Source: a virus
IMG/VR virus record: IMGVR_UViG_3300006735_000349
Coordinates: 1 to 20,185 of that record
Direction: 5' to 3' (one strand)
DNA length: 20,185 bases
Both the position numbers and the translations under genes were made by a program. Below, in pieces: positions 2,022-20,055 of the stretch (its first letter is position 1; every line of letters starts with the position of its first letter). Under the pieces are notes generated by a model. It saw only the letters and a list, made by a program, of their open reading frames with translations. It was not told where the DNA came from and made no database searches.

Positions 2022-2564
2022 ATGGGATTAAAAGCAGACTTATTAGATGCAATATTACAAGCATCAGCTGATGCTGGATTTCCAGAACCGCCTGATTTAT
2101 CAAATGGGACATATCCAGAAAGATTAGCCCATTATCAAACTGAAGCTATAGTAAACTTTTTAACACAGGCTGAATTTAGAATCACTCAATTAAATGCTCC
2201 TGTTGTTGTTGACAAATTAAAAACACCAGACCAGCCTGTAAACATTGAATTGGAAACAATGTTAGGTGAATATGGACCTATCTTGAAAACATTAAAACAA
2301 ATTGGAGGCCCACTTGGTTTAGGGGAGTTAATAGATTCGTTAGAAGGCGAAATTGAAAAAGCTGTGACTCCACTATTAGAAGGTGGTGCTAAATTAACTG
2401 GATTGGATTTGGGGAAAGATGAGGGTGGATTAGAATCAACTGGTTATGTTTTTATAGGAGAGGAGCCAGATTCTAGAGATGAATTTGATGTAGATGAAGA
2501 AGATGGACAGCGAGAATTTACAACTGTAAAATTATTTAGAGATGATATTGAGGACTTATTATAA
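2022..2564 (+). CDS. Acidic protein of unknown function directly upstream of gp25
   Basis: This 180-residue protein starts at ATG 2022, six bases after GGAAG (2011-2015). Its stop overlaps the gp25 start (TAATG at 2562-2566), so the two are probably translationally coupled. Residues 1-60 are helical (MGLKADLLDAILQASADAGF). Residues about 85-130 form a glycine/leucine-rich region (LKQIGGPLGLGELIDSLEGE) that could pack as a short helical hairpin. Residues about 145-165 are strongly acidic (EEPDSRDEFDVDEEDGQREF). There is no signal peptide and no convincing membrane helix. By position it could be a small wedge, hub or inter-wedge component. T4 gp53 has a similar length (196 residues), but I see no sequence reason to equate them. 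Real gene: high confidence. Function: unknown. Confidence 0.8.
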   Translation: MGLKADLLDAILQASADAGFPEPPDLSNGTYPERLAHYQTEAIVNFLTQAEFRITQLNAPVVVDKLKTPDQPVNIELETMLGEYGPILKTLKQIGGPLGLGELIDSLEGEIEKAVTPLLEGGAKLTGLDLGKDEGGLESTGYVFIGEEPDSRDEFDVDEEDGQREFTTVKLFRDDIEDLL

Positions 2565-3031
2565 TGGCTATTAGAGATACGTCAAGAAAACCATACATTC
2601 AAGATAACGATACTCGTGTAAAAATTGGTATTGATTTACCAATTCGTAGAGATAGTGAGTTGGATGGATTTTTTGCATCAACTTCAACAACCATTGAAGC
2701 TGTAAAAAATAACATAAGAAATTTATTACAAACGGAAGAGGGTGAGAGATTCTTTCAACCAAATTTAGGAATAGGATTAAGAAAACTTTTGTTTGAACAT
2801 ATTACACAATCTAATTTAATTGGTATACAAGATGCTATATTGGATAAAATAGAATTTTGGTTACCATTTGTAGAAGTGAGAGATATACAAGTTTTAAGTA
2901 AAGAAAGTGAAACAAGTATTGGAGTAAATGAAATAAGAGTAAAAATATTATTCAACATAATACAAGACCCAACCACTTTGGATTCAATAACTTTGGATTT
3001 TTCAAGTGATGTAACAGAGGGAGATAGATAA
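2564..3031 (+). CDS. 25: Baseplate wedge subunit, T4 gp25-like (GPW/gp25 family, TssE-like)
   Basis: This 155-residue protein belongs to the gp25/W family, a small wedge protein that ties the sheath to the baseplate in contractile tails and type VI secretion systems. The family signature is clear: a helix (TIEAVKNNIRNLLQTEEGER) leads into the conserved E-G-E-R at residues 59-62, then FFQPNLGIGLRKLLFEHI. A C-terminal beta region (VRDIQVLSKES, then RVKILFNII) follows, as in the family. The N-terminal ~30 residues precede the core fold, and total length is close to T4 gp25 (132 residues) with a short extension. GAGG (2550-2553) in the last codons of the upstream gene provides the SD, and the start overlaps that gene's stop. 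The gene order 25 then 6 without a gap is typical of contractile injection machines, which strongly supports both assignments. Confidence 0.93.
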   Translation: MAIRDTSRKPYIQDNDTRVKIGIDLPIRRDSELDGFFASTSTTIEAVKNNIRNLLQTEEGERFFQPNLGIGLRKLLFEHITQSNLIGIQDAILDKIEFWLPFVEVRDIQVLSKESETSIGVNEIRVKILFNIIQDPTTLDSITLDFSSDVTEGDR

Positions 3032-5271
3032 TGCCAACATATGGTAAAGAAAACTTTAAAGAATCAAATGTAAACTATTTAAATAAAGATTTTGTAGCAT
3101 TGAAAACATCTTTGATGAATTATGCTAAATCTTATTTTCCAGATACCTATCGTGATTTTAATGAAACATCACCTGGTATGATGTTATTAGAAATGAATGC
3201 ATATGTTGGTGATGTATTATCATTTTACATTGATAAACAATATCAAGAGATGTTATTACCATTAGCTGAAGAAAGAAGAAACATAATTACAATGGCTAAA
3301 ATGTTCGGTTATAAAGTTAAACCAATTGTTCCAGCTTATGTTGATTTAACTTTTACTTCTGAGGTAAATGCTTCAAGTGGTGATGTTTCAAAAGTAGACT
3401 ACTCTAATGCTGGAACTTTTGATGCTGGTATTGAAATAACTGCAAATACAAATTCAGACATTATTTTTACAACATTAGAACCAATTGATTTTAGAATATC
3501 AGCATCAAATGATACTGAAACAATTGGAACTACAGATGCTAGTGGTTTGGCTTCAACTTATACATTATCAAGAACTGTAAGAGCTGTAAGTGCAACTCAA
3601 AAAACAATTTCATTTCAAATTGGTACACCTGAAAAATTTAAGACATTAACTATACCTGATACAAATATAATTGATATTATTTCTTGTATAGACTCAAATG
3701 GAAATAATTGGTATGAAGTAGATTATTTAGCACAAGATAAAGTTCCAATTCAAACACATTATACTAATGATATAAATAGAGATTCTGCGTATGTTGACGC
3801 TACTGGATTATCAACATCAGAAGCTGTACCTTTTTCTTTAACTTATGCTACAACTACAAAAAGATTTACTCGTGAAACAAATCAAGATAATACGACTTCA
3901 CTTGTGTTTGGTAATGGGGTATTGAAAGATGGACAACTTGTTGATGATGGGTATATTGATATGGAGCAAGTTGGAATCATAATACCTGGACAAACTAATG
4001 ATTTAAATCAATCAATTAATCCATTGTTGGGTGATGAGTATTCAACATTAGGTGAAACACCAAACCAAACTACTCTTACAATTACTTATCGTGTTGGTGG
4101 TGGGATTACTTCAAACGTCCCAAGTGGTGATGTATCAACCACACCATCTATAACTGCGCAGAGTGGAAATACATCTGCAACTTTAACAACTGTTACAAAT
4201 AACCAACCAGCTCGTGGTGGTAAGGATGAAGAAGACACTATTGAAATAAAGGAAAGAGCTAAAGCATTTTTCACTACACAAAACAGATGTGTAACAAAAG
4301 AAGATTATGAGGCTAGAGTACTAAACATACCATCTAAGTTTGGTAATATTGCAAAAGCTTATGTTACACGAGGACAAGTTTCAAATATTTTTGAATCTCA
4401 AATATATGCGGCTAATCAACAACTTATTCAATTACAACAAACTTTTCAAAGCACTATTACAGACATCGCTGATAGTGTATATGCGGATGCGGATCCGCAA
4501 ACTGTAGTAAAATTGGTTGACTTTATAAACAATTCTTTACCACAAATGTTGAATATTTCATTTTCAGGTGAAAATCCAGATGCTACAGATGCAATCTCAA
4601 CTATAAACATTTATGTATTAGGATATGATAATAGAAAACAGTTAGTTGGTAATCCTCATACAAACACAACTTTAACAAATGATAATTTACCAACCACTTT
4701 AATGATGAATATAAAAAATTATTTAGAAAACTTTAAACTAATGACGGATGTTGTTACACTTAATGATGGGTATATTGTAAACTTTGGTGTTATATTTGAT
4801 GTGATAGCTGAAAAATATGCAGATAAACAACAGGTAAAACTTAGATGTATTCAAAAAATTAGAGATTATTTTAACATTGTAAAAATGCAATTCAATCAAC
4901 CAATTTATAAAAGTAATTTAGAGTATGAATTAATGGGTGTTGAAGGTGTTCGTTCAATCGGACATGTTACTATAACTCAACACGAAGATTATTTTTATGA
5001 TGATGGGGAAACATTAACATCACCAACTTATAGTTATTCATTTGATAACTCTGTTCAATTAATAGATATAGATGGTAATGGTACATTGGATGGCAGTTTT
5101 GTTGATTCTGTTTCTACAAACAATGAAGGGACTAATGGCTATGGTTACAAATATGATTTTAAAACTGCGTTGTCAGATGATGGTACAATTGTATTACCAC
5201 CATTAACATCAACACCAACAGTTTTTGAATTAAAAAATCCAAACACAAACATACAAGGGAGAGTTAGATAA
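3031..5271 (+). CDS. 6: Baseplate wedge subunit, T4 gp6-like (baseplate J family)
   Basis: This 746-residue protein is the gp6/J-type wedge protein that dimerises to form the continuous ring of the baseplate. The N-terminus has the diagnostic pattern: NYLNKDFVALKTSLMNYAKS, a DFNETSPGMMLLEMNAYVGD segment at about residues 42-61, then SFYIDKQYQEMLLPLAEERR, matching T4-type gp6 rather than the shorter phage-Mu/P2 J form. A middle beta-rich region contains TYRVGGGITSNVP and RGGKDEEDTIEIKERAKAFF, and the J-like NRCVTKEDYEARVLNIPSKF begins near residue 420. T4 gp6 is 660 residues, so this copy is slightly long. The C-terminal ~80 residues add an acidic beta segment with a DIDGNGTLD calcium-type loop (residues 679-687). 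The gene starts at a TAATG overlap with AGAGGGAGA (3016-3024) upstream, and ends in another TAATG. Confidence 0.93.
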   Translation: MPTYGKENFKESNVNYLNKDFVALKTSLMNYAKSYFPDTYRDFNETSPGMMLLEMNAYVGDVLSFYIDKQYQEMLLPLAEERRNIITMAKMFGYKVKPIVPAYVDLTFTSEVNASSGDVSKVDYSNAGTFDAGIEITANTNSDIIFTTLEPIDFRISASNDTETIGTTDASGLASTYTLSRTVRAVSATQKTISFQIGTPEKFKTLTIPDTNIIDIISCIDSNGNNWYEVDYLAQDKVPIQTHYTNDINRDSAYVDATGLSTSEAVPFSLTYATTTKRFTRETNQDNTTSLVFGNGVLKDGQLVDDGYIDMEQVGIIIPGQTNDLNQSINPLLGDEYSTLGETPNQTTLTITYRVGGGITSNVPSGDVSTTPSITAQSGNTSATLTTVTNNQPARGGKDEEDTIEIKERAKAFFTTQNRCVTKEDYEARVLNIPSKFGNIAKAYVTRGQVSNIFESQIYAANQQLIQLQQTFQSTITDIADSVYADADPQTVVKLVDFINNSLPQMLNISFSGENPDATDAISTINIYVLGYDNRKQLVGNPHTNTTLTNDNLPTTLMMNIKNYLENFKLMTDVVTLNDGYIVNFGVIFDVIAEKYADKQQVKLRCIQKIRDYFNIVKMQFNQPIYKSNLEYELMGVEGVRSIGHVTITQHEDYFYDDGETLTSPTYSYSFDNSVQLIDIDGNGTLDGSFVDSVSTNNEGTNGYGYKYDFKTALSDDGTIVLPPLTSTPTVFELKNPNTNIQGRVR

Positions 5272-6404
5272 TGCATCATTTTATTTTTCCAAATCAAGAC
5301 ACTTGGGTATCAAGTGGTTCAAGTAAAATAGATGGGACTTCTTTTAGAGACCAAAACTTTGGAAGAGACCAAATACTTGAAGTCAAAAAAGAATTTTTTA
5401 ACAATTCATTTGACCATCAAACGAGGGCATTAATTCAATTTAGTGGAGATGAATTTACTGAATTATCTAAGTCACTTGCTGATGGGACTATATCTCCACT
5501 TAGAGGTCCTACTGCTCTTAGTGGTACAAAAATTTATCTAAGATTATTTGAAGCTGAGGGTAATGCAGAAATGACTGAAGAGTATACTTTAGCCATCCAA
5601 CCAATATCACAATCTTGGACTGAAGGTACTGGTAAGTTTGGTGATAGGCCAAAAAATAAAAATGGGTGTAGTTGGGAAAATCGTAGTAATCCAATTGGTG
5701 GTAACGCCTTAACTTGGAGTAATGCTGGTGTTGATGTATTAAGTGTCAGTCAATCAACACAGACTTTTTCAAATCAATCACCTGATGTTGATGTTAATGT
5801 AACAGATATGTTCCGTATGTGGTACAATGGTCAAGAAGAAAACTATGGAATGTTAATTAGTTTTAGTGGTAGTCAAGAAACAGATTCTTCAACATTCGGA
5901 CATTTAAAATTCTTTTCAAGAAACACACATACGATTTACTCACCAAAATTAGAAGTTAGATGGAATGATTCATCATTTTCTACTGGTTCATTGAATGAAT
6001 TAACAATGAGTGGATTAGCTGATAACTTTTTATATATGAAAGGATTGAAGGAAAGTTATAAAGTAGGTGAACGAGTTAAGTTTAGAGTTGGTGCAAGAAA
6101 AAGATATATTCAAAAAACTTTTACTAATTCAGTACAAACCGTAACTGGTTCATTCATTACTCAAGGTAGTGGTTCATATGCAATTAAAGACGTAGCTACT
6201 GATGAGTTTATTGTTCCATTTGAAGATTCAACAGGAACAAGTTATACAAAACTTAGTTGTGATGAAAACTCAAATTATTTTATTCAATATTTAGATGGAT
6301 TCTATCCCGATAGAGTTTATAAAATTTTATTAAAATTAAAATTAGATGATGGACAAGAACAAGTGTTCGATGATGATTTTGAGTTTATAGTGAAAAGGAA
6401 ATAA
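5271..6404 (+). CDS. DNRLRE-domain baseplate-associated adhesin-like protein
   Basis: Residues about 8-235 of this 377-residue protein fit the DNRLRE domain, a beta-sandwich usually found in secreted bacterial surface and carbohydrate-active proteins. The signs are, in order: DTWVSSGSS, then RDQNFGRDQILEVKK, then RALIQFSGDE, then QSWTEGTGKF; next the terminal block DVNVTDMFRMWYNGQEENYG with W184 and G187, then LISFSGSQ, HLKFFSRNTH and SPKLEVRW. Residues about 250-377 form a second all-beta region (YKVGERVKFRVGARKRYIQK through YKILLKLKLDDGQEQVFDDD). There is no signal peptide, as expected for a virion protein assembled in the cytoplasm. The start overlaps the gp6 stop, and AAGGGAGAG (5255-5263) precedes it. 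In T4 this slot holds gp7, which this protein does not resemble in size or content. I infer a peripheral baseplate protein that may bind glycans. The domain call is from motif recognition only. Confidence 0.72.
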   Translation: MHHFIFPNQDTWVSSGSSKIDGTSFRDQNFGRDQILEVKKEFFNNSFDHQTRALIQFSGDEFTELSKSLADGTISPLRGPTALSGTKIYLRLFEAEGNAEMTEEYTLAIQPISQSWTEGTGKFGDRPKNKNGCSWENRSNPIGGNALTWSNAGVDVLSVSQSTQTFSNQSPDVDVNVTDMFRMWYNGQEENYGMLISFSGSQETDSSTFGHLKFFSRNTHTIYSPKLEVRWNDSSFSTGSLNELTMSGLADNFLYMKGLKESYKVGERVKFRVGARKRYIQKTFTNSVQTVTGSFITQGSGSYAIKDVATDEFIVPFEDSTGTSYTKLSCDENSNYFIQYLDGFYPDRVYKILLKLKLDDGQEQVFDDDFEFIVKRK

Positions 6405-6406
6405 GT

Positions 6407-8152
6407 ATGGCGTACACACAAGACCAAAATACAGACCTAATACCTTTGACTTATGAAGCCGAATCTGGAGATTTAGAAGCATTATTAGATTCTATAGCTG
6501 ATGCTTTAATTAGAAGTCAATATATTGATACATCAATAGTTGAAAATAATCAAAAATTTATTCGTAATGGGCAAATACAAACTGGACAAGGAGATGGAGT
6601 TCTTGCTCTTTACCAAAAAGATGTTGAGGCTAATGTAGAAGATAACTTACAAAGTGTAGCAGACCAAATTACTGGAGAATATCAAATAAGTTCAAGTTTA
6701 GGTATAGACAATAGTATTGGTATAAGTATTATTGGTGGTGGGTTTGCTGGTGGTGGATTAGACATTACTAATTTAGTTTTTTCAAATCAAGATGGTAATC
6801 CCTTAAATGTAAGTCAATTCATTCCATTAGAACAATCAGCATCATTTGTCGATGTTGACAAGGCTGAAGAATTTCTTGACACAAATATTTATGAATTATT
6901 ACCAACAGGTGATGCAAGGCAAGCTAGAATTGTTAGATTTTTTCAAGAATTAAATGCACTACTCCCACCACAACTACCTCAATTTGATTTAGACCAAGAT
7001 GGTAGTGTTGATAGAGGTTTAGATGGAAGCTGGACTGGTTCAATTGAATATAATAAGAATTATAGTATTTCATATGCTCAAGATAACGTAGATGGTAACA
7101 TTGATGAGGATGATGCATTTATTCATAGATTAAAGTCAACAGCCAATGATACAAATTCATCAAGAACCATTGAAGATATTTACAATAGAGTTCTTCCTTA
7201 TTTAACTGATAGATTGGAAGTTAATCAAGTTATGTCTGATACTAGACCAGAATATCAAAATGAATCTTCTGGTTATTTAAAATTTAGAAATCCAAATCAA
7301 GGTATTATTATTCGTAATGCAAATAAAGATTTTATTGAAGGATTAGACCCAAGTATTCCAACTTGGTTGACAACTGATTACAATGGCTTGTTAAATACAT
7401 ATAGTGGTGATGCAGCTCCTTATGACAATACAACAAATTTTATATTAAACAATGCGGGAACTGGCTTTACCATTACAATGTGGGTAAGATTTTTAGATAA
7501 AGTATCAGAAGGGACATTGTTTAATTTTGGAAATCCAACAAGAGATGAAAATCCATTTGGTTTTAAATTAGAAACTTATGTTGTAAATAGAGACGACCCA
7601 ACAGTTCAACTTAATAATAGATATGATTCTGATGGTAATCAAATAACCACTAATACTTTCGGAGAGTTTGTAGATAGTTCAAATGTAAATGGTGACAATT
7701 ATTTTAGAGATACATTGAATTTATTTAAAAATACAAATTCAGAAAGATTTGTTAGATTACAAGTTAGAGAATTTGGAATAAATGATGTAACTTATGATAG
7801 AGGATTCAGAAGTTCAGAACTTGGGAATCCAGGAGCTCCGAAATACACTTGGAATGCACCTGAATTGGGTGGTACAGATGGTGATGATTTAAGATTATTA
7901 AATAATACTAACATACCTGAAAATTTCAATGAATGGTATTTTATATGTGCTAGTTATAATCCATCTATAATTGAACCAAATTCTGCTGATTATCCAATTG
8001 ACAATATTGCGAACAATCCTTTGTATTGGTTAAATCATATAAATCCAGCTACTGGAAATTCCGTTGCAAATTCAGACTTTGGTAATAAATGTAAAGTAGA
8101 AATAATATCACGAAGTAACTTATTAAGAGCTCGTGGCTTTAAGGTAAATTAA
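6407..8152 (+). CDS. Virion structural protein with C-terminal LamG/concanavalin-like domain
   Basis: This 581-residue protein has an N-terminal attachment-like region: residues 1-80 are helical with LIPLTYEAESGDLEALLDSI, and residues about 85-140 are glycine-rich (SIIGGGFAGGGLDI). Residues 194-202 read DLDQDGSVD, matching the first nine positions of an EF-hand/dockerin-type calcium loop. From about 290 the protein is beta-rich (SGYLKFRNPNQGIIIRNANK). Residues about 340-575 look like a concanavalin A/LamG jelly roll: FTITMWVRFLDKVSEGTLFN with W359, then FGFKLETYV, FVRLQVREFG, NEWYFICASYNPS with W510, and a final KCKVEIISRSNLLRARGF strand. AAGGAA (6395-6400) lies 6 nt before the ATG, after a 2-nt gap from the upstream stop. 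Probably a baseplate or fibre protein that binds the cell surface or another virion protein. No enzymatic motif is visible. Confidence 0.72.
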   Translation: MAYTQDQNTDLIPLTYEAESGDLEALLDSIADALIRSQYIDTSIVENNQKFIRNGQIQTGQGDGVLALYQKDVEANVEDNLQSVADQITGEYQISSSLGIDNSIGISIIGGGFAGGGLDITNLVFSNQDGNPLNVSQFIPLEQSASFVDVDKAEEFLDTNIYELLPTGDARQARIVRFFQELNALLPPQLPQFDLDQDGSVDRGLDGSWTGSIEYNKNYSISYAQDNVDGNIDEDDAFIHRLKSTANDTNSSRTIEDIYNRVLPYLTDRLEVNQVMSDTRPEYQNESSGYLKFRNPNQGIIIRNANKDFIEGLDPSIPTWLTTDYNGLLNTYSGDAAPYDNTTNFILNNAGTGFTITMWVRFLDKVSEGTLFNFGNPTRDENPFGFKLETYVVNRDDPTVQLNNRYDSDGNQITTNTFGEFVDSSNVNGDNYFRDTLNLFKNTNSERFVRLQVREFGINDVTYDRGFRSSELGNPGAPKYTWNAPELGGTDGDDLRLLNNTNIPENFNEWYFICASYNPSIIEPNSADYPIDNIANNPLYWLNHINPATGNSVANSDFGNKCKVEIISRSNLLRARGFKVN

Positions 8153-8153
8153 A

Positions 8154-11100
8154 ATGGCTTTTCTTAAAGAAGCATTCTCTCCAGGATTTGGTGTTACTGA
8201 TGGTGTACAGCCTGAACAAACACTATTAAAACCATTTGATCCATTTAGTGGGTTGGATTTAAACTTATCTATTTTTCAAAATACAAATCAAAATCTTGAA
8301 GATTCAAATCAAGATGGTAGAATTGAATTAGGTATGTTTTCATTTAATGAAGACAATATTGCAAAAGATAATTTTCCTAATGCAGCTGCATCACCATTTA
8401 TTGGACTAACAAAAACAAATTTAGTTAAAAATGGAAATTGTAAATCTGTAGAAAAACAATTTGTTACTTTAGATGATAATCCAATTGTTGTTAAACCTGC
8501 AGGAGATTGGAAGTTTTTATCTTTATATGAACAGAAAGATGGACGTTTTAACAATCCTGATTTTCAAAATTTTCAAGGATATGGTGGTAAATATAATTAT
8601 ATTCCTCTATCATTAGAATTAGATAATGGTGATAGTGGTTTTAATTATTGGGGTAGAATTGAAAGGGCGTTTGAAGATGGTAACGCTAATGATAGTAAAA
8701 TAGCTGAATACTTTGGTTCTAATTTAAATGAATACAATACATCTTTTGACTATGGACAATCTCGTATCAATAATTCTATAAATGATTTAGTTCAAGTAAG
8801 AGCAAAAACAAGTTTTTATGGTAATGATGGAATGGCGAAAAATTCAAATACATCAACAAAACCCATACCACATATTGCTATGTGGGTAACAACACCTGAA
8901 GCTTATTCCAATAATAGGTGTTTATGTTTTATGAATTTTGAACTGTTTGGATTGTCTCAAGTTCTTGATTATACTTACACCACTGGTGGTAAGTATATTT
9001 TCAATTGGTTTATGAAAAAAAATCTACAAAGTAATGGTAAACCAGAAGAGGGTTTGACTTATGATACAAATAATGTTAATCATCACCATCAAGAACGAGT
9101 GTTAAATCAAGTACAACAAATTTATAATAAATTCAATGATGAAGAAATTAATCCATATAGTTCATTAAAAATAAGATTTAAAATGAAAACAACCAATGTT
9201 TTACCACCAGGTAATACAATTAATAATGCGAGTGACGAATCATTGTTTTTACAAAATCCACTAGACGAAAGTTTAGGTTATGCACCCAAAGTTGATATTG
9301 GTATTTTAGAAGCTCAATGGAATGAAGTTCCAAAAGCAGGTAAAAATTCTGTTCCCCAATATAGATTGGAACTAGAAGACCATACTTTTAGGTCTTCTGG
9401 TGGTTTTAATTCAAATAGATATTTTCAAGTTGATGAATTATATAAACAAGCAGATTCAAGATTTGGTGGGATGAATAGATTTCAAAATTCAATAATGAAC
9501 GAATGGGAAACATTTGAGTTTGACTTTAATTTAACAGAACAACATATGAATCGTGGTTTAATATATGGAGTTCCTTTTGGTGGTACATTTGATGATGCTG
9601 CGAATGGTGGTGTAGTTGAAATACAAATAAATACAAATTCTGATGAAGATAAACAAGTTGGTGACCAACCTGGTGAAATATTTTTTCAAATACCTGGTTA
9701 TGATAGAAACAATCCAAACATAGATGAATTTTACATAATACATCCTGATGGAACTCAAAGGAGAGTAAAACACGCTGAAGTTGGTAAATATAATGAAACT
9801 GATATAAATAGTGTTCCAACAGCTTTAGGTGATACTGGTGGTGATGCTGATGACCAACGAACTGGATTACAAGAAAGTGGTAGATTTCTTGAAGCATATT
9901 TAATGTATGTAGGTACAGTTTCAGAACAAGAAGAAATGTTTATGGAAGATGGTATTGATTATGCTGATAGTAGGGATGATTTTGGTGTAGATGAAAACCA
10001 TAGTGGGCCAGATGGAAGAGCTCCAATGGATTTAGTTCTTGCGTATTGGAATGGAGAACGATGGAGTTATGATGACAATAGTGGTTATGATGCAGGTAAA
10101 CAATTCAGTCCTGACGAAACTTGTTTCATACTTGGTAGATTGTATGCTAATCCTGCTGAACAAGGTGGTGAAGAAGAAACCAATCAAGGTATTAACCAAT
10201 TCGACCAATATATTGGTAATGAGTCTCAGTTTCCAACTGGTGGTGTGGGTAATCTGCATTTATTTTTACAGACAGGTAATAACTTTCAAGGTAGAGTGTT
10301 GATTGATGATATTGAATGTTATGAATCTTATGAGTTCATACCTGAAGTAGATGTTAGAAAAAAAATATCAGTTGATAATTATGGTTTAGCTGATTTAACA
10401 AAATACTATGATGAAGAATTGCAACCAGAAGAATATAAAGATACACAAGCACCATTGGAGGCTCAATTTTATTTTTATCCACAATATACGACTGATGAAT
10501 TGTTAGACATTGAAAGAACTCCAATTTATGAAGATTTTAAAAATGGAAAGTTTTATATTTTTGATATTGATTGGGGTGATGGTTCTGTGAATGAATTTAC
10601 TTCAAGGCCTAAACAAATAGATGAAGATACAGCTTTATATCATACATATGAAACCAATGGTGTGTTTGAAATTGTTGGTACAATGCTTAGAGTTAAAACT
10701 AATGATGATGATGAAATACTTGGAGTTATTCATAATAAAAAATTTAAATTAAGAATAAATATAAATCAAGGGAAGGATGAAGATTTTCAATATTTTGGAA
10801 GTAATGGTTTTTCTTTCATTCCATTTAAGAACACTACACCAATTGTAGGTGGAATTTCAAAGCAAAGTTCTTACTATAAAACTATAAAAAGACAACTTGG
10901 ATTTTTAGACAATGAAAAAATAAGTATAAACTTTAAAAATAAAAGTGATAAATTAAAAACTGAATTAGCTCTTTTAAAAATGGAAAATCAAAATGATTCT
11001 AATTTAGAAGTATTACCAAGTTATATGAGACAAAGATTTGATGAAAATGGTAATCTTATATACAATGGTATTACACCAGTCAAGGAAGAATTAGGAAAAG

Positions 11101-11804
11101 GAATTGGTGACTGTGATTTAACATCTATTAAATATTATAATAAACCAAAATCAATTTGGGAAATGTTTGGATTTAATGATAGAGATAGTAATGTTGATTT
11201 GGTTGCTAGAGAGGGTGAATTTATAAATAGAAGAACTGGGGAGTTAGTTCCAGCTGGCACTTTATATCATATTCATCCTGATGGTGGTCCTATGGAAGGT
11301 GGTGTACATAACACTGGAATACCTGGTGGAACTGAGGGACATGATTATTTTGATAACACTATAGCAATACCATCAAGTAATAGGTATTGGAAAAACATCA
11401 TACCTCAAGATTATTCTATATTTAATAGAGAAGGTATTGACTTAGATGCTAATGTGATTATAGATACTTATTCACAGCAAGAATGGCTTGATGGTTATTA
11501 CTATCCTGTTTTACCAAAATATAGTCAAGACGGTGAATTTATAGAAAATGATTTTCCAAATGATAAAATACCATTTCCACTACAAAGTAGTATAACAGAT
11601 GAAAAAGAAAGTGATGAAAGTTTATTAATCAGTATGAGTAATGAAAAAATAGAAGTCGATGTGTTAAATGATAGTAGTGGTAATAAAAATTATTTATTTT
11701 TATTTGATGATTTTACATCAAAATTTGATGAAAAAACTTTAAGAGTAAAAAAAGTAAGTCGAAGAAGTATGAATAAAACATCTAAACAAAATGGGGCATT
11801 TTAA
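8154..11804 (+). CDS. Giant multidomain baseplate/fibre-like protein with CBM-like, PKD and HxH modules
   Basis: This 1216-residue protein is a mosaic of extracellular-type modules. Residues 50-58 read DSNQDGRIE, a near-canonical calcium loop. From about 85, NLVKNGNCKSV starts a CBM4/9-like jelly-roll region. A second beta-sandwich closes near 713-725 with GRVLIDDIECYES. After DVRKKISVDNYGLADLTKYY comes a PKD domain: DWGDGS at 806-811 and YHTYETNGVFEIVGTMLRV from about 829. The tail opens with TTPIVGGIS at 894 and has a histidine cluster GTLYHIHPDGGPMEGGVH (H1039, H1041, H1052), then H1063. HxH sites bind iron in several phage spike and fibre tips, which is a possible role here. Residues 766-1216 resemble the C-terminal half of the next gene product. 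The last codons (NGAF, then TAATG) contain the next gene's SD. AAGG at 8141-8144 is the SD here. Specific target unknown. Confidence 0.72.
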   Translation: MAFLKEAFSPGFGVTDGVQPEQTLLKPFDPFSGLDLNLSIFQNTNQNLEDSNQDGRIELGMFSFNEDNIAKDNFPNAAASPFIGLTKTNLVKNGNCKSVEKQFVTLDDNPIVVKPAGDWKFLSLYEQKDGRFNNPDFQNFQGYGGKYNYIPLSLELDNGDSGFNYWGRIERAFEDGNANDSKIAEYFGSNLNEYNTSFDYGQSRINNSINDLVQVRAKTSFYGNDGMAKNSNTSTKPIPHIAMWVTTPEAYSNNRCLCFMNFELFGLSQVLDYTYTTGGKYIFNWFMKKNLQSNGKPEEGLTYDTNNVNHHHQERVLNQVQQIYNKFNDEEINPYSSLKIRFKMKTTNVLPPGNTINNASDESLFLQNPLDESLGYAPKVDIGILEAQWNEVPKAGKNSVPQYRLELEDHTFRSSGGFNSNRYFQVDELYKQADSRFGGMNRFQNSIMNEWETFEFDFNLTEQHMNRGLIYGVPFGGTFDDAANGGVVEIQINTNSDEDKQVGDQPGEIFFQIPGYDRNNPNIDEFYIIHPDGTQRRVKHAEVGKYNETDINSVPTALGDTGGDADDQRTGLQESGRFLEAYLMYVGTVSEQEEMFMEDGIDYADSRDDFGVDENHSGPDGRAPMDLVLAYWNGERWSYDDNSGYDAGKQFSPDETCFILGRLYANPAEQGGEEETNQGINQFDQYIGNESQFPTGGVGNLHLFLQTGNNFQGRVLIDDIECYESYEFIPEVDVRKKISVDNYGLADLTKYYDEELQPEEYKDTQAPLEAQFYFYPQYTTDELLDIERTPIYEDFKNGKFYIFDIDWGDGSVNEFTSRPKQIDEDTALYHTYETNGVFEIVGTMLRVKTNDDDEILGVIHNKKFKLRININQGKDEDFQYFGSNGFSFIPFKNTTPIVGGISKQSSYYKTIKRQLGFLDNEKISINFKNKSDKLKTELALLKMENQNDSNLEVLPSYMRQRFDENGNLIYNGITPVKEELGKGIGDCDLTSIKYYNKPKSIWEMFGFNDRDSNVDLVAREGEFINRRTGELVPAGTLYHIHPDGGPMEGGVHNTGIPGGTEGHDYFDNTIAIPSSNRYWKNIIPQDYSIFNREGIDLDANVIIDTYSQQEWLDGYYYPVLPKYSQDGEFIENDFPNDKIPFPLQSSITDEKESDESLLISMSNEKIEVDVLNDSSGNKNYLFLFDDFTSKFDEKTLRVKKVSRRSMNKTSKQNGAF

Positions 11805-11806
11805 TG
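11791..11806 (+). promoter_or_regulatory. SD and TAATG stop/start overlap at the 8154/11804 gene junction
   Basis: The final codons of the upstream gene (Asn-Gly-Ala-Phe) read AATGGGGCATTT and contain GGGG at 11793-11796, seven bases before the ATG of the next gene. The stop TAA shares its last A with that ATG. Ribosomes finishing the first protein are therefore placed to restart on the second, which implies coupled production of the two related proteins. The same layout, with GGAG in place of GGGG, recurs at the end of the second paralogue (14352-14367). Confidence 0.7.
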
Positions 11807-14365
11807 GCTCAAATAAAAAGAATAATATCTAATAAACCAAAAAGTGGTGATATAAGTCAATATAATTTTAATCAAGGTGATGCACTTGATTATGAAAATT
11901 CCAATAGTCTTCCTGAAAATTGGGATAAATTTCAAAATAAAGATTTATTTACAAATTGTGTTGGTGATAAAATTAATGATGGTATTATTGAAAAAAATCT
12001 ATCATTTCAAGGAGATACTCTTTTACAAATTGATAATTTATTTATTAAAAATACTGGTGTATCAGGAACCACAATAAATAACAAAGTTAATATATGGATA
12101 TTTTCAGAAAAAGCATATGGTGGTGATCCTACTAAAGATGGGTACACTACTGTAAAAGAGAATATGAAAGATGAATGGAAAGTTTTTTATGAAAAATTCG
12201 GTGATAAATCTGAAGGTGAAGATTTAGGTAATATAACTTCTGTAGAAGGTATTCCTATAATTAGTAATTTTTCTATTAATTCAATATCTCCTCAATTAGG
12301 AGACTTTCCTGGAATAAAATGGACTGTGGATGATGTGAATGATGATGATGGACCATTTAAACTTGATGGTAATACTGAGTCAGATTTGATAACTAGCATA
12401 TTTAATCAAGAACAATATAACCCCATATACATTGTTATTAATACAAAAGGTGATAAAGAACAATGGTGGCCTGTAAATTCAGATGAAAGAAGAAGAAAAT
12501 ACTCGGTTTACAAAATTAACAATCAAGATTTATTTCGAAAACAAGGGTCAAGTTTTCAAGGTTCAACTTTTCAAGTAAATTTAACTTCACCAAACTCAAC
12601 AAAAACTGGTGAAGGTGGTAGTGGTGCTAAAAAATCTCCCTGGTCAGTATCTTCACTTAAATTAACAATAAATACATCGGCTGGTGGTCAAAATTCTTTT
12701 ACTGGAGTTTCTAATTATCAAAACATAATACCTTCAATTTTACCAACGGCTAGAGTTAATGAAAATATTTTAAATAGTTTTGAATGGTTAGAAGCTTTAA
12801 ATCCACATTTACAACTTGACAATGATGAAATTCCTGACAATAATCCTAACTCTTCACTTAGACATCCTGATTTCATACCAATAACAACATTTGGTTTTAG
12901 TCAAAATAATTCTCTCAGTCCGCTTTATGCTGATTTACAAACTTATCATAGGGATTCTAACTCTTTAGCAAAATCATCCACTCCATTAAATGTAACATTT
13001 CAAATTAATGTTGCAAAACCTATTCCTGGTGAATTAATTGGTTTAGATTTGTATGGTGGTGGTGATAGATTATTTTATTATTTTGTAATAAGTTGGGATG
13101 ACAAAGAAGATGAAATTAAATCTATACAAGATTGGTTAGATGTAAGACCTGATAATGAATTTAAATACTTAGAACTTCTAAATCAAAATTTATATAAAAT
13201 CCAAAAAGTACCAGGTACAACTTTTAATACAGACCCAAATTATTTAGCTACTTTACCATTTCCACAATATAGAGAAGAATTTGATATAAGTAATGTTGGA
13301 GATAATATAACCTTTGACATTGTTCCTAGCACGATCAGATATGAAACTCGTGAATTGCATGGACAGGATATATCACAATGGACAGCTTTTGGTAGACCAG
13401 ATATTACACAATATTTACAACAATTAAATATTCAGGAAACCACATATGATGAAGATTTTTCTATACCTTATCCAATTAATTATTCTCAAGACTATGAACC
13501 CGATACTGAATTACAAATACCAAGTGCTCAAGATGCTGGTGTAACACCACAATCCCCAGCTAATTTTTTCAATCCAAGTTCTACATATGTTGAATCATCG
13601 ATGACTGAAACATTGAATAATGTCTATACAACACCTGGAATCAAAAATATAAAATTCATTATGTTTAGTGCTTTTGATGGTGATGGAACATCAGCTTCTC
13701 CGGATTTTGAAGTTGGAAGGTGGAAACTCTGTACATCGAGAATTTATTTAGACATACCACCAAATCAATATCCTGACTTTAATGATGTTGGTGGAAGTGA
13801 TTATACAACCCTTCCTTGGCCATATACCACACCAATAATTGGTGGATTGAGTGAAAATTCAAAATATAAAATGAGTGTTCAAGATACACTAAGTGGAGGT
13901 AAAATTAGTGAATTAGATATTATTGATGAAAAACTTTTGATTAATGATTTAGAAAATGATGAAATGGGAAAAAGTATAGAAAGTATGGATTTACAACAAT
14001 GTAGATATTTTAACACAGGTTATAGTATGTATGATTTACTTGGAATTAACGCTGTTATTAATGATAACTTAATACAATACAGTAACCCCTACTATGATGG
14101 TGATATAAATAAATTTCCGATGGAAAGTTCAGTCGGACAGATATTTATAAGTGATAATTCAGATTTAAATTTGAAACAAAGTTGTAAATTAGAATTGAAT
14201 ACAGGTGAGTTAAGTGGTAAATCAATAATTGATTCAAGTGGAAATTCTAATAAAGGAATGTTGATTGGTGATTACAAAGTTAAAAAAAATAGAAAAGGTG
14301 AACCGATGAGAAGAAATTCATTTATAAAAGTTCCTAAAAAATCAAACACTAATGGAGCACTGTAA
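11804..14365 (+). CDS. Large virion protein, diverged paralogue of the preceding protein, with interrupted PKD-like domain
   Basis: This 853-residue protein has a beta-rich N-terminus of unknown fold (about 1-390), with a glycine/serine stretch GEGGSGAKKSPWS around 267-280. From residue 393 it tracks the preceding protein: TPLNVTFQI corresponds to APLEAQFYF, and FVISWDDKEDE (W431) to the DWGDGS start of a PKD fold. About 150 extra residues follow, then VYTTPGIKNIKFIMFSAFDG (V607, Y608) matches the second half of PKD, and TTPIIGGLS at 675 matches TTPIVGGIS. SMDLQQCRYFN...MYDLLGIN and the terminal SNTNGAL also have counterparts. The WGDGS motif is degraded to WDDKE. Insert residues include a Leu/Asp-rich segment and PFPQYREEFDISNVGDNITF. 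GGGG (11793-11796) lies 7 nt before the ATG, inside the preceding gene. Inferred role: peripheral baseplate or fibre subunit, possibly partnering its paralogue. Confidence 0.7.
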   Translation: MAQIKRIISNKPKSGDISQYNFNQGDALDYENSNSLPENWDKFQNKDLFTNCVGDKINDGIIEKNLSFQGDTLLQIDNLFIKNTGVSGTTINNKVNIWIFSEKAYGGDPTKDGYTTVKENMKDEWKVFYEKFGDKSEGEDLGNITSVEGIPIISNFSINSISPQLGDFPGIKWTVDDVNDDDGPFKLDGNTESDLITSIFNQEQYNPIYIVINTKGDKEQWWPVNSDERRRKYSVYKINNQDLFRKQGSSFQGSTFQVNLTSPNSTKTGEGGSGAKKSPWSVSSLKLTINTSAGGQNSFTGVSNYQNIIPSILPTARVNENILNSFEWLEALNPHLQLDNDEIPDNNPNSSLRHPDFIPITTFGFSQNNSLSPLYADLQTYHRDSNSLAKSSTPLNVTFQINVAKPIPGELIGLDLYGGGDRLFYYFVISWDDKEDEIKSIQDWLDVRPDNEFKYLELLNQNLYKIQKVPGTTFNTDPNYLATLPFPQYREEFDISNVGDNITFDIVPSTIRYETRELHGQDISQWTAFGRPDITQYLQQLNIQETTYDEDFSIPYPINYSQDYEPDTELQIPSAQDAGVTPQSPANFFNPSSTYVESSMTETLNNVYTTPGIKNIKFIMFSAFDGDGTSASPDFEVGRWKLCTSRIYLDIPPNQYPDFNDVGGSDYTTLPWPYTTPIIGGLSENSKYKMSVQDTLSGGKISELDIIDEKLLINDLENDEMGKSIESMDLQQCRYFNTGYSMYDLLGINAVINDNLIQYSNPYYDGDINKFPMESSVGQIFISDNSDLNLKQSCKLELNTGELSGKSIIDSSGNSNKGMLIGDYKVKKNRKGEPMRRNSFIKVPKKSNTNGAL

Positions 14366-14367
14366 TG
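14352..14367 (+). promoter_or_regulatory. SD and TAATG stop/start overlap at the 11804/14365 gene junction
   Basis: The last codons of the 853-residue protein (Gly-Ala-Leu) contain GGAG at 14354-14357, seven bases before the overlapping ATG of the 1896-residue protein. The junction mirrors that at 11791-11806 in spacing and in encoded peptide (NGAL against NGAF). This suggests the gene end was duplicated together with the coupling signal, or is kept by selection on both protein and RBS. Confidence 0.7.
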
Positions 14368-17300
14368 CCAGAATTTGAATTTGAATTTAATCAACAAGAT
14401 AGAGATTTAGTAGTTACTCAATCTGAAGAAGTAGTATTTGGTGATTCTGATATTTCATTAGATTACATTCGTTTAACCATTTATCCTACTGAAGGAATTA
14501 ACAACATTGTTGATTTAGCTGATAGTACATCGGGTATAGATGGTAAGGCTATATTCTTTTCATCTTTAGATGAAGTTCAATTTGATGTAAACATTTCACC
14601 ATTTAAAGAAGATAACAAATTTACTACTCGACTTGTTGGTGGTTCGAATAATGATTTCCAAATATATAAAAATCCCAATGGAAGTATTTATATCAAACCT
14701 AATGAAATATTTAATACTTTTGATTTACCTCAGGGAAATTACAGAATACAGATTGACTTTTTAAAACAAGTTCTATCAGGCGCACCATTTATAATAAAAC
14801 AAATTTCAACTTCAAGGAAAGAAATTAGACTCAAAGTATTAAATTCTAAACTTGACAATACTTCAACTCTTATTTCTCAAATAAAAGATTTATTTAATAA
14901 CAATATTGAAGGTAGTAATCCTGAATTTCTTGAAGATACAGACGAATCATCTAATACTTTTGGTGAATTAGTAATACCAAATCCTAATTATAAATATCAA
15001 TTCAAACATATATTAAATATTGGAAATGGTGACCATATTCCAATAATGAATTATGCATTTGATAGATTTACAGATGGTAAAGAAAATCAATCTATCATAT
15101 TAAAACTTTATAATGATTTGCCAACTAATATAAGTAATTTAAAATTTGTATCAATTGAGAAAGAGATATTAACAACACAACTTCAAGATATATTTTATTT
15201 CTCTGATGTACCCGATGTTTATTTTGGTGATGGTTTATTATCAGACCCACAAGAAAATTGGATTACTTCTAATAACAATAGCATTGGATTTCAAAATTTA
15301 AATCAATTAGCCGTATCAGCTTCTATTGGTGATATTGAAATCAACTCTTTAATATCATCAAGTCAATATGATTATCCAAATCTTAATACAGATTTTAAAG
15401 AATTTTCAAATCACACATTTTTTGGTTCAGCTAAAAAGAAATTACAAAATTTTAAAACAAAAGTAGAAACTATTCAAGGACATTATACAGAAATATCAAG
15501 TTCACTTGTGGTTTCAAGTTCAATTCAAGGCGATTCCACTTTTATAATTAAAAAAAGAAAAGATTTATTTAATAAAATTAATGAAGAGTTTAAAACATTT
15601 ACACCTTATGAAAGATTTTTATATTTTGATGGTCAAACGGATTCAACTTCATCAGCTCCAAGTTTAAAAAATTATGCTGATACTTTACCAGTTACATTAC
15701 ATGGTGGTCCTGGCTCTCCTGTTGAGGGAATTGAATTAAATCAACATAATGGATTTAATGTTGTGTACAAACATTCATCAGAAAAACTATCAGGTAATCA
15801 TAATCAATATATAGATTTATTTACAGATAAATATTTTGTAGAAAATAAACCATTTTTTAATTACAGTGGTTCGATTTATTTATCATTTTTATTACAAGGT
15901 GATAGTGGTAGTTCATTGACTTGGGAAAATAGAAATAAAAGTTTAAATCCACCATTACCTCAAGATACTTTATATCAAAACAATATTTTAAATCCTGATA
16001 TGACATCAAGTGCATATCAAAGATATGTGTTTGAAGCTTCTCAATCTTATTTCATACCAAAAACAAATGGTAATGATATGGCTGATTTAAGTATCGATGC
16101 TGGTGACTTTAATGCCGGTTCTTCAAAAATTACAATTTTAAGTGGAAGTGTTAAAACAGGTTCTTACCAAATTAAAGATTCAACTAATCAGTATTCAACT
16201 ACGGTGGTAAGTCAAAGTGGTGTACCATTCTTTGGTTCAGTAATGCCAAGTGGTGAATTGTTTAGAATTTATAATCAAAACACATTGTCATCAAGTTTAA
16301 GTGGTAGTTACAATGTAGATTCCCAAACCTCAGGCGCTTCTGTTACAAACGCGATGTTAACTGACTTTAGTGGTAGAGGAAATACTGGTTCAATTGATGA
16401 AGGAACACCAAAAATATCAGATGGTGTTACTGTACATGGTAGACAATATGGAAAATCAATGTTGTTTTTAAGTGAGTCAAATGATTCCATAAGATTTTTT
16501 TCTGATAATGATTTTAACTTTAATAGAGATGATAATTTTTCATTATCCATATGGGTAAAAAGATTTCATCCAAATACAGGTTCAGCTGACTCATCACACC
16601 CTTCAACTGCAAATACACAGGCTATTTTTACAAGAGGACAAACAGGTAACTCTTATGGTATTGATTATGAATTTCACACAAACAACATAAGAGCTGCTGT
16701 AAGGGGTAATAGTTCAGAACAAGCAGCTAAAATTCAAGTAACAGATGATTTATTAAATTGGAATCATGTTGCGTTCACTTATGAAAGTGGTTCGGCTACT
16801 GGTATAAAACTTTATCTTAATGGTGAATTGAAAGCTACTCATACAACAACTGGAGCTGGTTATTCGATAACTGGTTCAAGTCATTTTTCAGCATCATCTG
16901 CTACTATAGGAGGCTCAGCTGATGCATTAAGTTTAGGTGGTAATGATGTATTAGCTGGTACAAATGGTCACTTTAATGGATTTTTACAATACCCAAGAGT
17001 TTATGGTAGAACATTAACATCTGCTGAAGTTCAACAATTGTATTTAAAACCAGATGGTATTACTGAAACAAAAATCACAGATGTAAAAGTAACATTAAAA
17101 AACCCAACTGATGTATTACCATTTGATAATATATTTAAAACAACATCTACTGAGTTTACAAATTGGTATAATGATATGTTGACAAAAGCAGAAACATTTG
17201 ATACTGATAACATACATTCATTTGAAAACAATTTACCTCTTTATATTCAAGACAGTTCTGAATACAATGATATGAAAGATTTCTTAAATCTACAAGGAGA

Positions 17301-20055
17301 ACAATATGATTTAATTAGAAACCATATTGATTCAATGGGTACAATTCATAAGAGGGGATATAAGAAAACCAACTCACCACCTGATAATACATTACCAATG
17401 TTGTTATCCAATATGGGGTGGCAAGCTATTAATCCATTTAGTGGAAGTTTAACTGATACATTGGGTAGTTATCTAAGTGGTGTAACTACAATTGATGATA
17501 TTAAAAACAACACTTGGAGAAAAACTCTAAACAATTTATTATATATTTATAAATCAAAAGGAACAAAAAACTCCGTTAGAGGATTATTAAACACATATGG
17601 TTATCCGCCTGACGTATTAAAATTTCAAGAGTTTGGTGGAGAGAGTTCTCCACGTTTAGATGGTCAAGATATTATTAATGATGAAATTCCACTTAGTGAA
17701 CCAGATAAAACCGATTTAAATTTACAATTAAGCACTGGAAGTTTTTCTTTTACCGAAAAGAAACAAAAACTTTATAATTATAATTTCAATGCAAATACGG
17801 ATAGAATTTTAAATTTAGACTGGTGGATGGATGATGCTAATATTAACACACTTGAATTTGTTTATAAACACAGTGAAACAACAAAAACACAAACAATATT
17901 GAAATCAAGTGGTAGTGGTACACAAACTCTTTGGGATTTAAGATTAATTCCAAGTTCAGATGGAGTTAGTTCATCATTTGAATTTAGATTAAATAATTCA
18001 CAAAATGGTGGCACCGATATTGGTAGTAGAGGCTTTTCGATGTCATTAGCATATAATGATATGAAAGATGGACAATTGTGGAATGTCATGATTCAAAGAA
18101 TGACTGGTTCGAGTAAAGGACCAGGAACCGCTGAATATAGGTTACATTCAGCTTTTCAAGATAAACAATCAATAGCTCCTTATAGTTATGTAACAATGTC
18201 AATTAGTGGTGGAATGGCAGGTGACTCTTCCACTCTTGGTGGTAAAGGATTTTTTGCAAATAAAAATTTCCAATCAAGTGGTTCAAGAGGAATAGACACG
18301 GCTTCAAATTTAGTAATTGGTGAAACATTTAGTGGCTCATTATCAGAAATAAAAGGTTGGGCTACTCAGTTAAGTATTTCAAAGTTCAGACAACATACAT
18401 TAAATAAATTTTCAACTGTTGGTAATACCATAAATTCACATAAAGACGATTTAGTTTATCACTTCAAATTAAATGAAAATTATATAAGTGCATCAGTATC
18501 TGCGTCTGGACAAAATTTAACAATTGTTGATGCATCACCAACAACAACTTATACTGATTATTCAATTATAAAAGATGGAGGGTTTTTTACAAGTTCAATA
18601 ATTTATGGTTTTGATTTTATAGATGTTATTAAATTAACATTAAAAGATAATGCTACTAAACCAAACGACAACACTATTTTAATAAATCCAAATCAATCTA
18701 TTATTGGTAATTTACACTTTGAAAACTCGGCTGTAGATTCATTTACAAAACCATTTGGTAAAAAACCACAATTCAATACATCGCCTAAATTAGAATTATA
18801 TCGTTCACCACAAACATTTATAGATGATTTTATATTAGATAATTTGAGTGGATTTAATTTAGAAACATTATATGGTAGTCCAATAAATTATTATTCACAA
18901 TCATATGATGAGTTTGATACATTTAGAAATGATTTCTTTACAGCTCATCCAATAGAAGTTAATGTTAATACATTTATTAGAGCTCATGAAAATATGTTTA
19001 ATGATTCTATAGCAGAGGGAATAAAAACATTAGTTCCTGCTCGTTCAACATTTAGTGGAAAAAATAGTAATGTAGGTGTAGAAATAAAGCCAACTTTATT
19101 AGAAAAACAAAAATATGAAAATGAAGAACATAGTATAGAAGCTAATCCAAATACTGGAATAGGTTCTATTGATGTTGATTCTATTACACATATTCCTAAC
19201 TCAAATTATGAAACAATAAAAGAAGGAACAATACAAGGAGTTCCATCCAATAGTGGTTCATTGGAGTTACCATTAAGTGTAACGATAAAAGTATCTGATA
19301 CTGGTAGCGATGGTAATCCTTATTTAGGAAATGCTTACATGTCTATGACAAGTTCAGTAGTAAATCCATATAGTGCTTCTTTTTCATATTCAGAAACAAA
19401 AGGAATACAAAACATACCACCAACATTATCGGGCTCATCAGTACCAACTTCAAAAAATGGAACAATTGATTACGCTTCAATAGCAAATAAATCTTTTGAA
19501 GATGTTCATAAGAATTGGGGAACAAGTTCGGCGGATGTACAACATATTAATTTTGCAGGTGGAACTGGTTCATATGGAACTTATAATACATATGATATAG
19601 AAAAAAGATTTGTATTTCATGCCATTGGTGATAATGAATATTATTCAGCATCAAGTGGTTATCCTTCACATTTTACAAACATTAATAGAATTTACAATAG
19701 ATTAATGATTGATACTAATGCACATGCAAGTGTTAGTTATCAATCTTTAATAAATGGAAGTGGTAGTGATTCAAATCAAACTGGTAAAATGATGGGTAAA
19801 ACAAGATATTTTATAACAAGTTCAGATGGGAACATCATATTACCATCAAATCACGTCACTAAGTTTAGTCAACCATTTAAAGATAGAATGAATGAAGGAA
19901 CACAAAATACAAATCCAGGTACATTACCCGTTCAACACGATGACTATTCAACAGCTTCATTTTATAGAATATCAGTTACTGGTGGTGAAAATCAACTTAT
20001 AGTAAAAGGTGGTGCAGGTAGTATTGGTGGTGGTGATAAAATAATATATGATTAA
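14365..20055 (+). CDS. Very large virion protein with two LamG/concanavalin-like domains (fibre/adhesin-like)
   Basis: This 1896-residue protein is the largest in the window. Residues 1-155 form a beta-rich N-terminal domain ending in STSRKEIRLKVL. Around 405-425 is EEFKTFTPYERFLYFDGQTD. Residues about 697-893 are a convincing LamG domain: FSLSIWVKRFHP, WNHVAFTYES, IKLYLNGELKATH and FNGFLQYPRVYGRTLTSAEV. Residues 1063-1081 (KSKGTKNSVRGLLNTYGYP) are a helical motif I associate with large structural proteins of marine phages. Residues about 1150-1355 look like a second concanavalin-like jelly roll (LDWWMDDANI through GETFSGSLSEIKGWATQLSI). Near 1558-1580, VPARSTFSG and GVEIKPTLLEKQKY form another such motif. 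The C-terminus is Gly/Ser/Asn-rich (GENQLIVKGGAGSIGGGDK). GGAG (14354-14357) lies 7 nt before the overlapping start. I infer a fibre, adhesin or outer-baseplate protein. No hydrolase or protease motif was recognised. Confidence 0.75.
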   Translation: MPEFEFEFNQQDRDLVVTQSEEVVFGDSDISLDYIRLTIYPTEGINNIVDLADSTSGIDGKAIFFSSLDEVQFDVNISPFKEDNKFTTRLVGGSNNDFQIYKNPNGSIYIKPNEIFNTFDLPQGNYRIQIDFLKQVLSGAPFIIKQISTSRKEIRLKVLNSKLDNTSTLISQIKDLFNNNIEGSNPEFLEDTDESSNTFGELVIPNPNYKYQFKHILNIGNGDHIPIMNYAFDRFTDGKENQSIILKLYNDLPTNISNLKFVSIEKEILTTQLQDIFYFSDVPDVYFGDGLLSDPQENWITSNNNSIGFQNLNQLAVSASIGDIEINSLISSSQYDYPNLNTDFKEFSNHTFFGSAKKKLQNFKTKVETIQGHYTEISSSLVVSSSIQGDSTFIIKKRKDLFNKINEEFKTFTPYERFLYFDGQTDSTSSAPSLKNYADTLPVTLHGGPGSPVEGIELNQHNGFNVVYKHSSEKLSGNHNQYIDLFTDKYFVENKPFFNYSGSIYLSFLLQGDSGSSLTWENRNKSLNPPLPQDTLYQNNILNPDMTSSAYQRYVFEASQSYFIPKTNGNDMADLSIDAGDFNAGSSKITILSGSVKTGSYQIKDSTNQYSTTVVSQSGVPFFGSVMPSGELFRIYNQNTLSSSLSGSYNVDSQTSGASVTNAMLTDFSGRGNTGSIDEGTPKISDGVTVHGRQYGKSMLFLSESNDSIRFFSDNDFNFNRDDNFSLSIWVKRFHPNTGSADSSHPSTANTQAIFTRGQTGNSYGIDYEFHTNNIRAAVRGNSSEQAAKIQVTDDLLNWNHVAFTYESGSATGIKLYLNGELKATHTTTGAGYSITGSSHFSASSATIGGSADALSLGGNDVLAGTNGHFNGFLQYPRVYGRTLTSAEVQQLYLKPDGITETKITDVKVTLKNPTDVLPFDNIFKTTSTEFTNWYNDMLTKAETFDTDNIHSFENNLPLYIQDSSEYNDMKDFLNLQGEQYDLIRNHIDSMGTIHKRGYKKTNSPPDNTLPMLLSNMGWQAINPFSGSLTDTLGSYLSGVTTIDDIKNNTWRKTLNNLLYIYKSKGTKNSVRGLLNTYGYPPDVLKFQEFGGESSPRLDGQDIINDEIPLSEPDKTDLNLQLSTGSFSFTEKKQKLYNYNFNANTDRILNLDWWMDDANINTLEFVYKHSETTKTQTILKSSGSGTQTLWDLRLIPSSDGVSSSFEFRLNNSQNGGTDIGSRGFSMSLAYNDMKDGQLWNVMIQRMTGSSKGPGTAEYRLHSAFQDKQSIAPYSYVTMSISGGMAGDSSTLGGKGFFANKNFQSSGSRGIDTASNLVIGETFSGSLSEIKGWATQLSISKFRQHTLNKFSTVGNTINSHKDDLVYHFKLNENYISASVSASGQNLTIVDASPTTTYTDYSIIKDGGFFTSSIIYGFDFIDVIKLTLKDNATKPNDNTILINPNQSIIGNLHFENSAVDSFTKPFGKKPQFNTSPKLELYRSPQTFIDDFILDNLSGFNLETLYGSPINYYSQSYDEFDTFRNDFFTAHPIEVNVNTFIRAHENMFNDSIAEGIKTLVPARSTFSGKNSNVGVEIKPTLLEKQKYENEEHSIEANPNTGIGSIDVDSITHIPNSNYETIKEGTIQGVPSNSGSLELPLSVTIKVSDTGSDGNPYLGNAYMSMTSSVVNPYSASFSYSETKGIQNIPPTLSGSSVPTSKNGTIDYASIANKSFEDVHKNWGTSSADVQHINFAGGTGSYGTYNTYDIEKRFVFHAIGDNEYYSASSGYPSHFTNINRIYNRLMIDTNAHASVSYQSLINGSGSDSNQTGKMMGKTRYFITSSDGNIILPSNHVTKFSQPFKDRMNEGTQNTNPGTLPVQHDDYSTASFYRISVTGGENQLIVKGGAGSIGGGDKIIYD

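Follow-up and report, generated by a model that had tools for sequence, protein, structure and literature searches.

What does this phage carry behind its gp25-gp6 pair, where T4 has the genes 7 to 12 of its baseplate? The window, by which we mean the whole stretch of DNA that was analyzed, is a virus record of 20,185 bases in which five genes follow gp25 and gp6 on one strand. An earlier note, made from the sequence alone, had described these five genes as about 14.8 kb of sugar- and surface-binding modules without gp7 to gp12 features, a lineage-specific outer shell joined to a conserved wedge core. It had also proposed that this baseplate periphery may itself act as a multivalent adhesin array, in place of a platform that bears fibres of its own. 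Here, we ask which of the five genes belong to the wedge, which of them are specific to the lineage and what kind of proteins they may encode. The labels A to E, which we use for the five genes, were coined in this analysis, as were 'gp5like', 'orf1', 'orf3' and 'orf4'.

The operon behind gp25 and gp6

The gene pair at the start of the operon was readily identified. A gp25-type wedge or sheath-initiator protein is encoded at 2564-3031 (+; PF04965, E 8.1e-12; phrog_261, E 3e-19) and a gp6-type wedge protein of the Baseplate_J type at 3031-5271 (+; phrog_219, E 1.8e-22), and these were the only two genes with confident matches in the PHROG search of the window. The five open reading frames that had been placed behind this canonical pair are all present, and from gp6 to E the intergenic gaps measure -1, +2, +1, -1 and -1 nt, so that the genes form one tight operon. 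In one scan, a gp6 relative was found to be encoded in 179 IMG/VR stretches. Upstream of gp25 lie four genes (3-368, 368-1615, 1624-2019 and 2022-2564) that relatives conserve together with the wedge operon; matches in Microcystis phage Mel-JY01 or Flavobacterium phage immuto were obtained for three, and none of the four gave a confident Pfam or PHROG match. The gene at 368-1615 may encode a hub or spike protein. On the other side of the operon, three relatives (L102, L109 and L141) carry, 3' of E, three conserved genes without an assigned function (234, 370 and 295 aa in L102) and then RuvC-like, primase and SbcC-like genes, which is why the tail module appears to end soon after E in these loci. 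A host search matched two MAG contigs (Flavobacteriales and Poseidoniales), both distantly, and these matches are too weak for naming a host. A 5 kb contig (L312) binned in a MAG of the archaeal Poseidoniales was seen to carry the terminal part of an A-like gene and, behind it, an E-like gene; its host assignment is doubtful. Two loci, L317 and L327, were left out of the comparisons.

We compared profiles of the window genes with T4-family profiles of gp6 to gp12, each built from 38-45 sequences. For none of A to E was a match to the gp7, gp8, gp9, gp10, gp11 or gp12 profile observed (probability at most 0.9%), and the gp6-gp6 positive control reached 95.7% (E 1e-8). At the level of sequence profiles, gp7 to gp12 are undetectable in A to E, and to this extent the earlier note was right. 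When the alignments of A, B, C, D and the E core were searched by profile against the sequences of the PDB, no meaningful match came up. T4 baseplate chains were absent among the structure matches listed, where the matches of the E core came from its LamG part only, and this absence does not argue against a structural relation.

Genes A and E

Gene A (5271-6404, +) was observed directly 3' of gp6 in 63 of 66 groups, which had been dereplicated by shared exact 300-mers. The three exceptions have another ORF after gp6: in L030 an ORF of 1272 aa separates gp6 from A, and the contigs of L099 and L101 stop within the extra ORF. We also found A in Mel-JY01 and immuto, with 31% identity over nearly the full length. 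Since A follows gp6 with this regularity and is kept in both phages, it is part of the conserved core, despite the CBM96-type fold in its N-terminal half. This half (5271-5966, +), a jelly roll of CBM96/DNRLRE type, matched CBM96 above the Pfam cut-off (E 4e-8; 33.6 bits against 26). In the structure model of A, which has a mean pLDDT of 66, residues 1-232 matched the chondroitin-binding CBM 8wab (Z 11.1 over 159 residues, 3.3 A). Residues 250-377, belonging to the C-terminal half (about 6009-6401, +), matched macroglobulin-type beta sandwiches, the best being 5a42 (Z 8.9 over 98 residues, 3.0 A). A Foldseek search of A against the PDB returned short or low-TM matches only, and the model matched several uncharacterised viral proteins in BFVD with TM values of 0.57-0.68. 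Judged by its fold, the CBM96-type half may bind carbohydrates.

Gene E (14365-20055, +) encodes a giant protein, and for its classification the order of genes in P2 is instructive. In P2-type tails gp25, gpJ and gpI form the wedge. The genes of P2 stand in the order W (gp25), J (gp6) and I, followed by the fibre gene H, and in nine more phage records the gpI gene was found downstream of a baseplate gene, which in most of them is annotated as J. E likewise lies downstream of the gp25 and gp6 homologues, with A and a slot of variable content between. Its most conserved stretch is a helical domain at 17125-17634 (+), and residues 921-1080 of E showed a mean identity to the window of 0.81-0.94 in the 18 aligned copies. 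Using hhalign, we observed profile similarity between this domain and the N-terminal domain of gpI with 84.5%-85.8% and E values of 5e-6 to 7e-6 (11 diverse gpI-family proteins were used in the run with 84.5% and E 7e-6). The aligned part of P2 gpI covers about residues 16-106. In the controls, the values did not exceed 0.3% for 20 column-shuffled profiles and 1.1% for 15 other families.

The Pfam family Tail_P2_I matched 14 of 19 members of the E-core domain, all below the cut-off; the copy in the window was matched at 17503-17622 with 10.8 bits. As the best match of any E reached 16.1 bits against a Pfam cut-off of 20.6, we do not file E as a formal member of the family and claim a related domain instead. 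When whole records were searched, 16 of the 21 that were not controls had a Tail_P2_I match in E, and none of those 16 had a second one; Mel-JY01, immuto and 3 of 19 metagenomic records gave no match, and the controls yielded 189 bits for P2 and none for T4. A model built from 18 E copies, including that of the window and excluding those of Mel-JY01 and immuto, matched both phages nonetheless (E 1.7e-32 and 2.8e-24, respectively). In the region of the gpI-like helices, the AlphaFold model was poor (pLDDT about 34-67) and the structure search was not informative on them, so that the proposed relation to gpI is drawn from sequence profiles only. Together with the gene order, these profiles suggest that E is probably a wedge protein of gpI/gp7 type and hence that such a protein is present. 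Given the gpI-related domain in E, a conserved core plus a wholly new shell is too strong a description, and the supposed lack of a gp7 counterpart probably does not hold.

Around the helical domain, E carries LamG-like domains. The one at residues 716-890 (16510-17034, +) passed the Pfam cut-off for Laminin_G_3 (E 1.1e-13; 52 bits against 27.6) and is optional, as the LamG-bearing residues 641-880 were present in about half of the 18 aligned copies. A second LamG/pentraxin-like domain at 17764-18636 (+), with model pLDDT mostly 60-92, matched PAPP-A with Z 16.6 (213 residues, 3.6 A) and a pentraxin with Z 14 in a structure search of the model. In two further loci, L160 (7994-19078) and L178 (7991-19066), the protein in the position of E has a length of about 3,690 aa.

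The slot between A and E

Next to the conservation of A and E, we analyzed the distance between them in 59 loci, counted per locus, so that several loci come from one contig and same-contig repeats are kept. The spacing fell into the ranges 219-350, 594-1241 or 7486-9479 nt, with nothing between these ranges. Short slots hold one ORF of 72-112 aa, middle slots one gene of 191-413 aa, and the slot of the window holds B, C and D on 7,960 nt. A comparison of the slot genes of other clades with B, C and D detected no homology. Slot genes of 231-278 aa in a second clade have one domain in common with the 413 aa slot gene of Mel-JY01 (98.9%). A and E share a locus in 29 dereplicated groups, among which we found B-C-D in 9, one unlabelled gene in 17, no labelled gene in 2 and a split A in 1. 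B-C-D thus marks the clade of the window and represents a replacement or insertion within the wedge operon. The lineage-specific part consists of B, C and D only. Lineage-specific proteins of lectin- or CBM-like kind are joined to a conserved core, as the earlier note had it, and these proteins are fast-evolving, but they extend over the 7,960 nt of the slot and not over 14.8 kb, with A standing in the core and E probably in the wedge.

The slot genes were found to diverge faster. Over 15 contigs, or 14 in the case of gp25 and A, the median of the identities relative to the window was 0.80 for gp25, 0.74 for gp6, 0.81 for A and 0.63 for E, compared to 0.57 for B, 0.43 for D and 0.37 for C. Gene B (6407-8152, +) was found only in the clade of the window; for its C-terminal part there is a weak hint of a LamG-like fold, with Laminin_G_3 matching 1 of 30 members (E 0.008). 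Gene C (8154-11804, +) is highly mosaic: in 43 complete frames its length ranges from 1145 to 2140 aa, the N-termini vary and inserts occur at recurrent sites. We scanned 23 C proteins and found CBM60 in four of them, CBM_4_9 in one and a HINT/intein-type domain in one (PT-HINT, E 2e-8), which indicates that inteins invade this array; the C of the window contained none of these domains. A search of whole records found CBM60 in 2 of 27. The C-terminal part of C (10509-11801, +, approximate bounds) is common to C and D (hhalign 98.3%, E 1.3e-14), and gene D (11804-14365, +) is paralogous to C at its C-terminal end, at about 13601-14362. In addition, a module in residues 456-600 of the window's D (13169-13603, +) is present in relatives as well, both in C and within the N-terminal part of E. 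The blastp rows for this module, which are not dereplicated by contig, number 22 for C, 19 for D and 7 for E among 276 sequences, and from this distribution we conclude that modules move between the genes of the array.

In the window, Pfam and PHROG searches assigned B, C and D to no confident family, the best PHROG match being phrog_11897 (E 0.009, function unassigned), and no tail-fibre PHROG was matched by any of the three. For this reason, the proposed adhesin role draws on the relatives, on the mosaicism and on the position of the genes. The DNRLRE-type and LamG modules named in the earlier note were borne out by A and E, respectively. CBM-like modules were recovered in A and in the C of some relatives (CBM60 in 4 and CBM_4_9 in 1 of 23) but not in the C of the window, and the PKD modules, at most a weak signal, were not confirmed, PKD_4 giving 0 matches in the window's C (G000) and 13 of 27 records having sub-threshold matches, none over the cut-off. 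In G005, a PKD-like match (complement 18741-18956) was observed inside an open reading frame of 4,675 aa. None of A to E has an N-terminal hydrophobic segment, which fits virion rather than secreted proteins.

For the question of separate fibres, a relative of 69 kb with the same A-B-C-D-E operon (G001, locus L013) is most informative. It carries three further large genes downstream, two of which matched tail-fibre PHROGs in hmmscan (E 4e-28 and E 6e-18, the former with a protein truncated at the start), followed by terminase, portal and head protease genes. As the matches lie in repetitive sequence and are perhaps partly compositional, we call these genes fibre-like. A search of 30 records, G001 included, with phrog_9942 matched three of them but not G001; both search routes together yielded tail-fibre-family matches in four records, and the absence in the other 26 means little, since most of the 30 records are fragments that may end before the fibre genes. 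The extra ORFs after gp6 in L030 (5163-8981), L099 (7476-9872) and L101 (2965-3327) were also labelled fibre-like. The L099 record matches a tail-fibre PHROG; the ORF of L030 has no such match and owes its label to an N-terminus resembling that of L099. The slot proteins apparently stand beside ordinary tail-fibre genes and not in their place, and with fibre-like genes in G001 and other relatives the claim that the array replaces the fibres is unsupported for this group.

Interpretation and comparison with known systems

We consider it fairly probable that the phage combines a P2-type wedge with a recombining and probably glycan-binding cassette at the baseplate periphery. According to this model, gp25, gp6, A and E would form the conserved core of the contractile-tail wedge, where gp25, two gp6 and E, judged by profile similarity, would assemble the wedge itself. 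E would be the third wedge protein (P2 gpI / T4 gp7 type), enlarged by LamG-like domains, and A would be a universal two-domain beta-sandwich protein of this phage group, serving in the wedge or as its decoration, so that A and the LamG domains of E would decorate the wedge. B, C and D would fill a recombination-prone slot between A and E and make up the variable periphery, as probable adhesins whose exchangeable central CBM- or lectin-like modules may bind glycans of the host surface before or while the separate tail fibres engage. A location of these proteins in the virion, a peripheral place, glycan binding and a role in adsorption are inferences that go beyond the observed homology and gene order.

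Other readings of the locus were weighed against these data. A wedge core with a wholly new outer shell in place of both gp7 to gp12 and the fibres would agree with the lack of T4 gp7-gp12 profile similarity in A to E and with the lectin- and CBM-like domains, but the gpI-related wedge domain in E, the position of A in the core and the separate fibre-like genes in relatives make it distinctly improbable. We judge it rather unlikely that B, C and D are ordinary tail fibres or spikes with connectors, highly diverged and located within the wedge operon of a baseplate that is nothing special, because they match no fibre family, C and D have conserved, paralogous ends, and G001 has separate fibre-like genes elsewhere. 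For such fibres speak the P2-like phages, with a fibre gene directly after gpI, the fibre-like ORFs adjoining gp6 in L030, L099 and L101, and the mosaic evolution, which is typical of fibres.

A fold of LamG-like or CBM-like type need not imply more than a structural role, and all of A to E might be built from such beta-sandwich blocks without binding sugars. The CBM96-type half of A is kept across Flavobacterium and Microcystis hosts, unlike a receptor binder, which favours this possibility; the exchange of CBM60, CBM_4_9 and LamG among relatives and the fast divergence of C and D suggest selection on ligands instead, and we hold a purely structural role to be unlikely. That B to D are non-virion proteins, such as secreted enzymes or decoys, which lie in the operon by chance, would be in line with our literature search, where no proteomic evidence of a virion location was found. 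We regard this as very improbable in view of the tight coupling between two wedge genes and the missing N-terminal hydrophobic segment.

The reading as a P2-type wedge with an exchangeable cassette gives the genes of the region testable places, namely E in the wedge, A in the core and B-C-D on the variable surface, and the slot marks where host-range evolution may occur within the baseplate itself. With immuto and Mel-JY01, cultured phages carrying the core are at hand. More tentatively, and as a possibility that we would not yet call likely, a group of T4-like phages might have a dedicated exchange slot between a universal CBM-fold A and an enlarged gpI-type E, in which large proteins that bind glycans are exchanged and reassembled from modules also present in the wedge protein itself, resulting in a multivalent, evolvable adhesin shell in addition to the tail fibres. 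New here are the slot in the wedge operon, the enlarged gpI-type protein and the modules common to both, and no description of such a slot was found in the literature searched.

Compared to the T4 genes 6-12, the Straboviridae baseplate, the operon has a T4-type gp6 and the same position behind it in common, but the gp7-gp12 profiles are without a match in A to E. With the P2 wedge operon W-J-I-H it shares the order from gp25 and gp6 to a gpI-type protein, and the helical domain of E aligns to gpI; the gpI proteins in the set used measure 176-240 aa, whereas E has 1896 aa with LamG domains, and P2 lacks both A and the variable slot between gp6 and E. Flavobacterium phage immuto and Microcystis phage Mel-JY01 have the same gp25-gp6-A-slot-E order, their slot being occupied by one gene of 112 or 413 aa, respectively, and not by B-C-D. 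Far-T4 phages are described in the available sections of PMC4360716 as virome phages with T4-type structural modules and in those of PMC7198788 as linked in silico to marine Bacteroidetes; no occurrence of the term 'baseplate' was counted in either paper, nor of 'gp6' in PMC4360716. In siphophages of lactic acid bacteria, according to the accessible parts of PMC7291167 and PMC8540738, CBMs are built into baseplates as evolved Dit proteins, so that the principle is not new. What these siphophages share with the present phage is the idea of exchangeable CBMs inside conserved baseplate proteins, realized there in the siphophage Dit and here in a myophage wedge operon.
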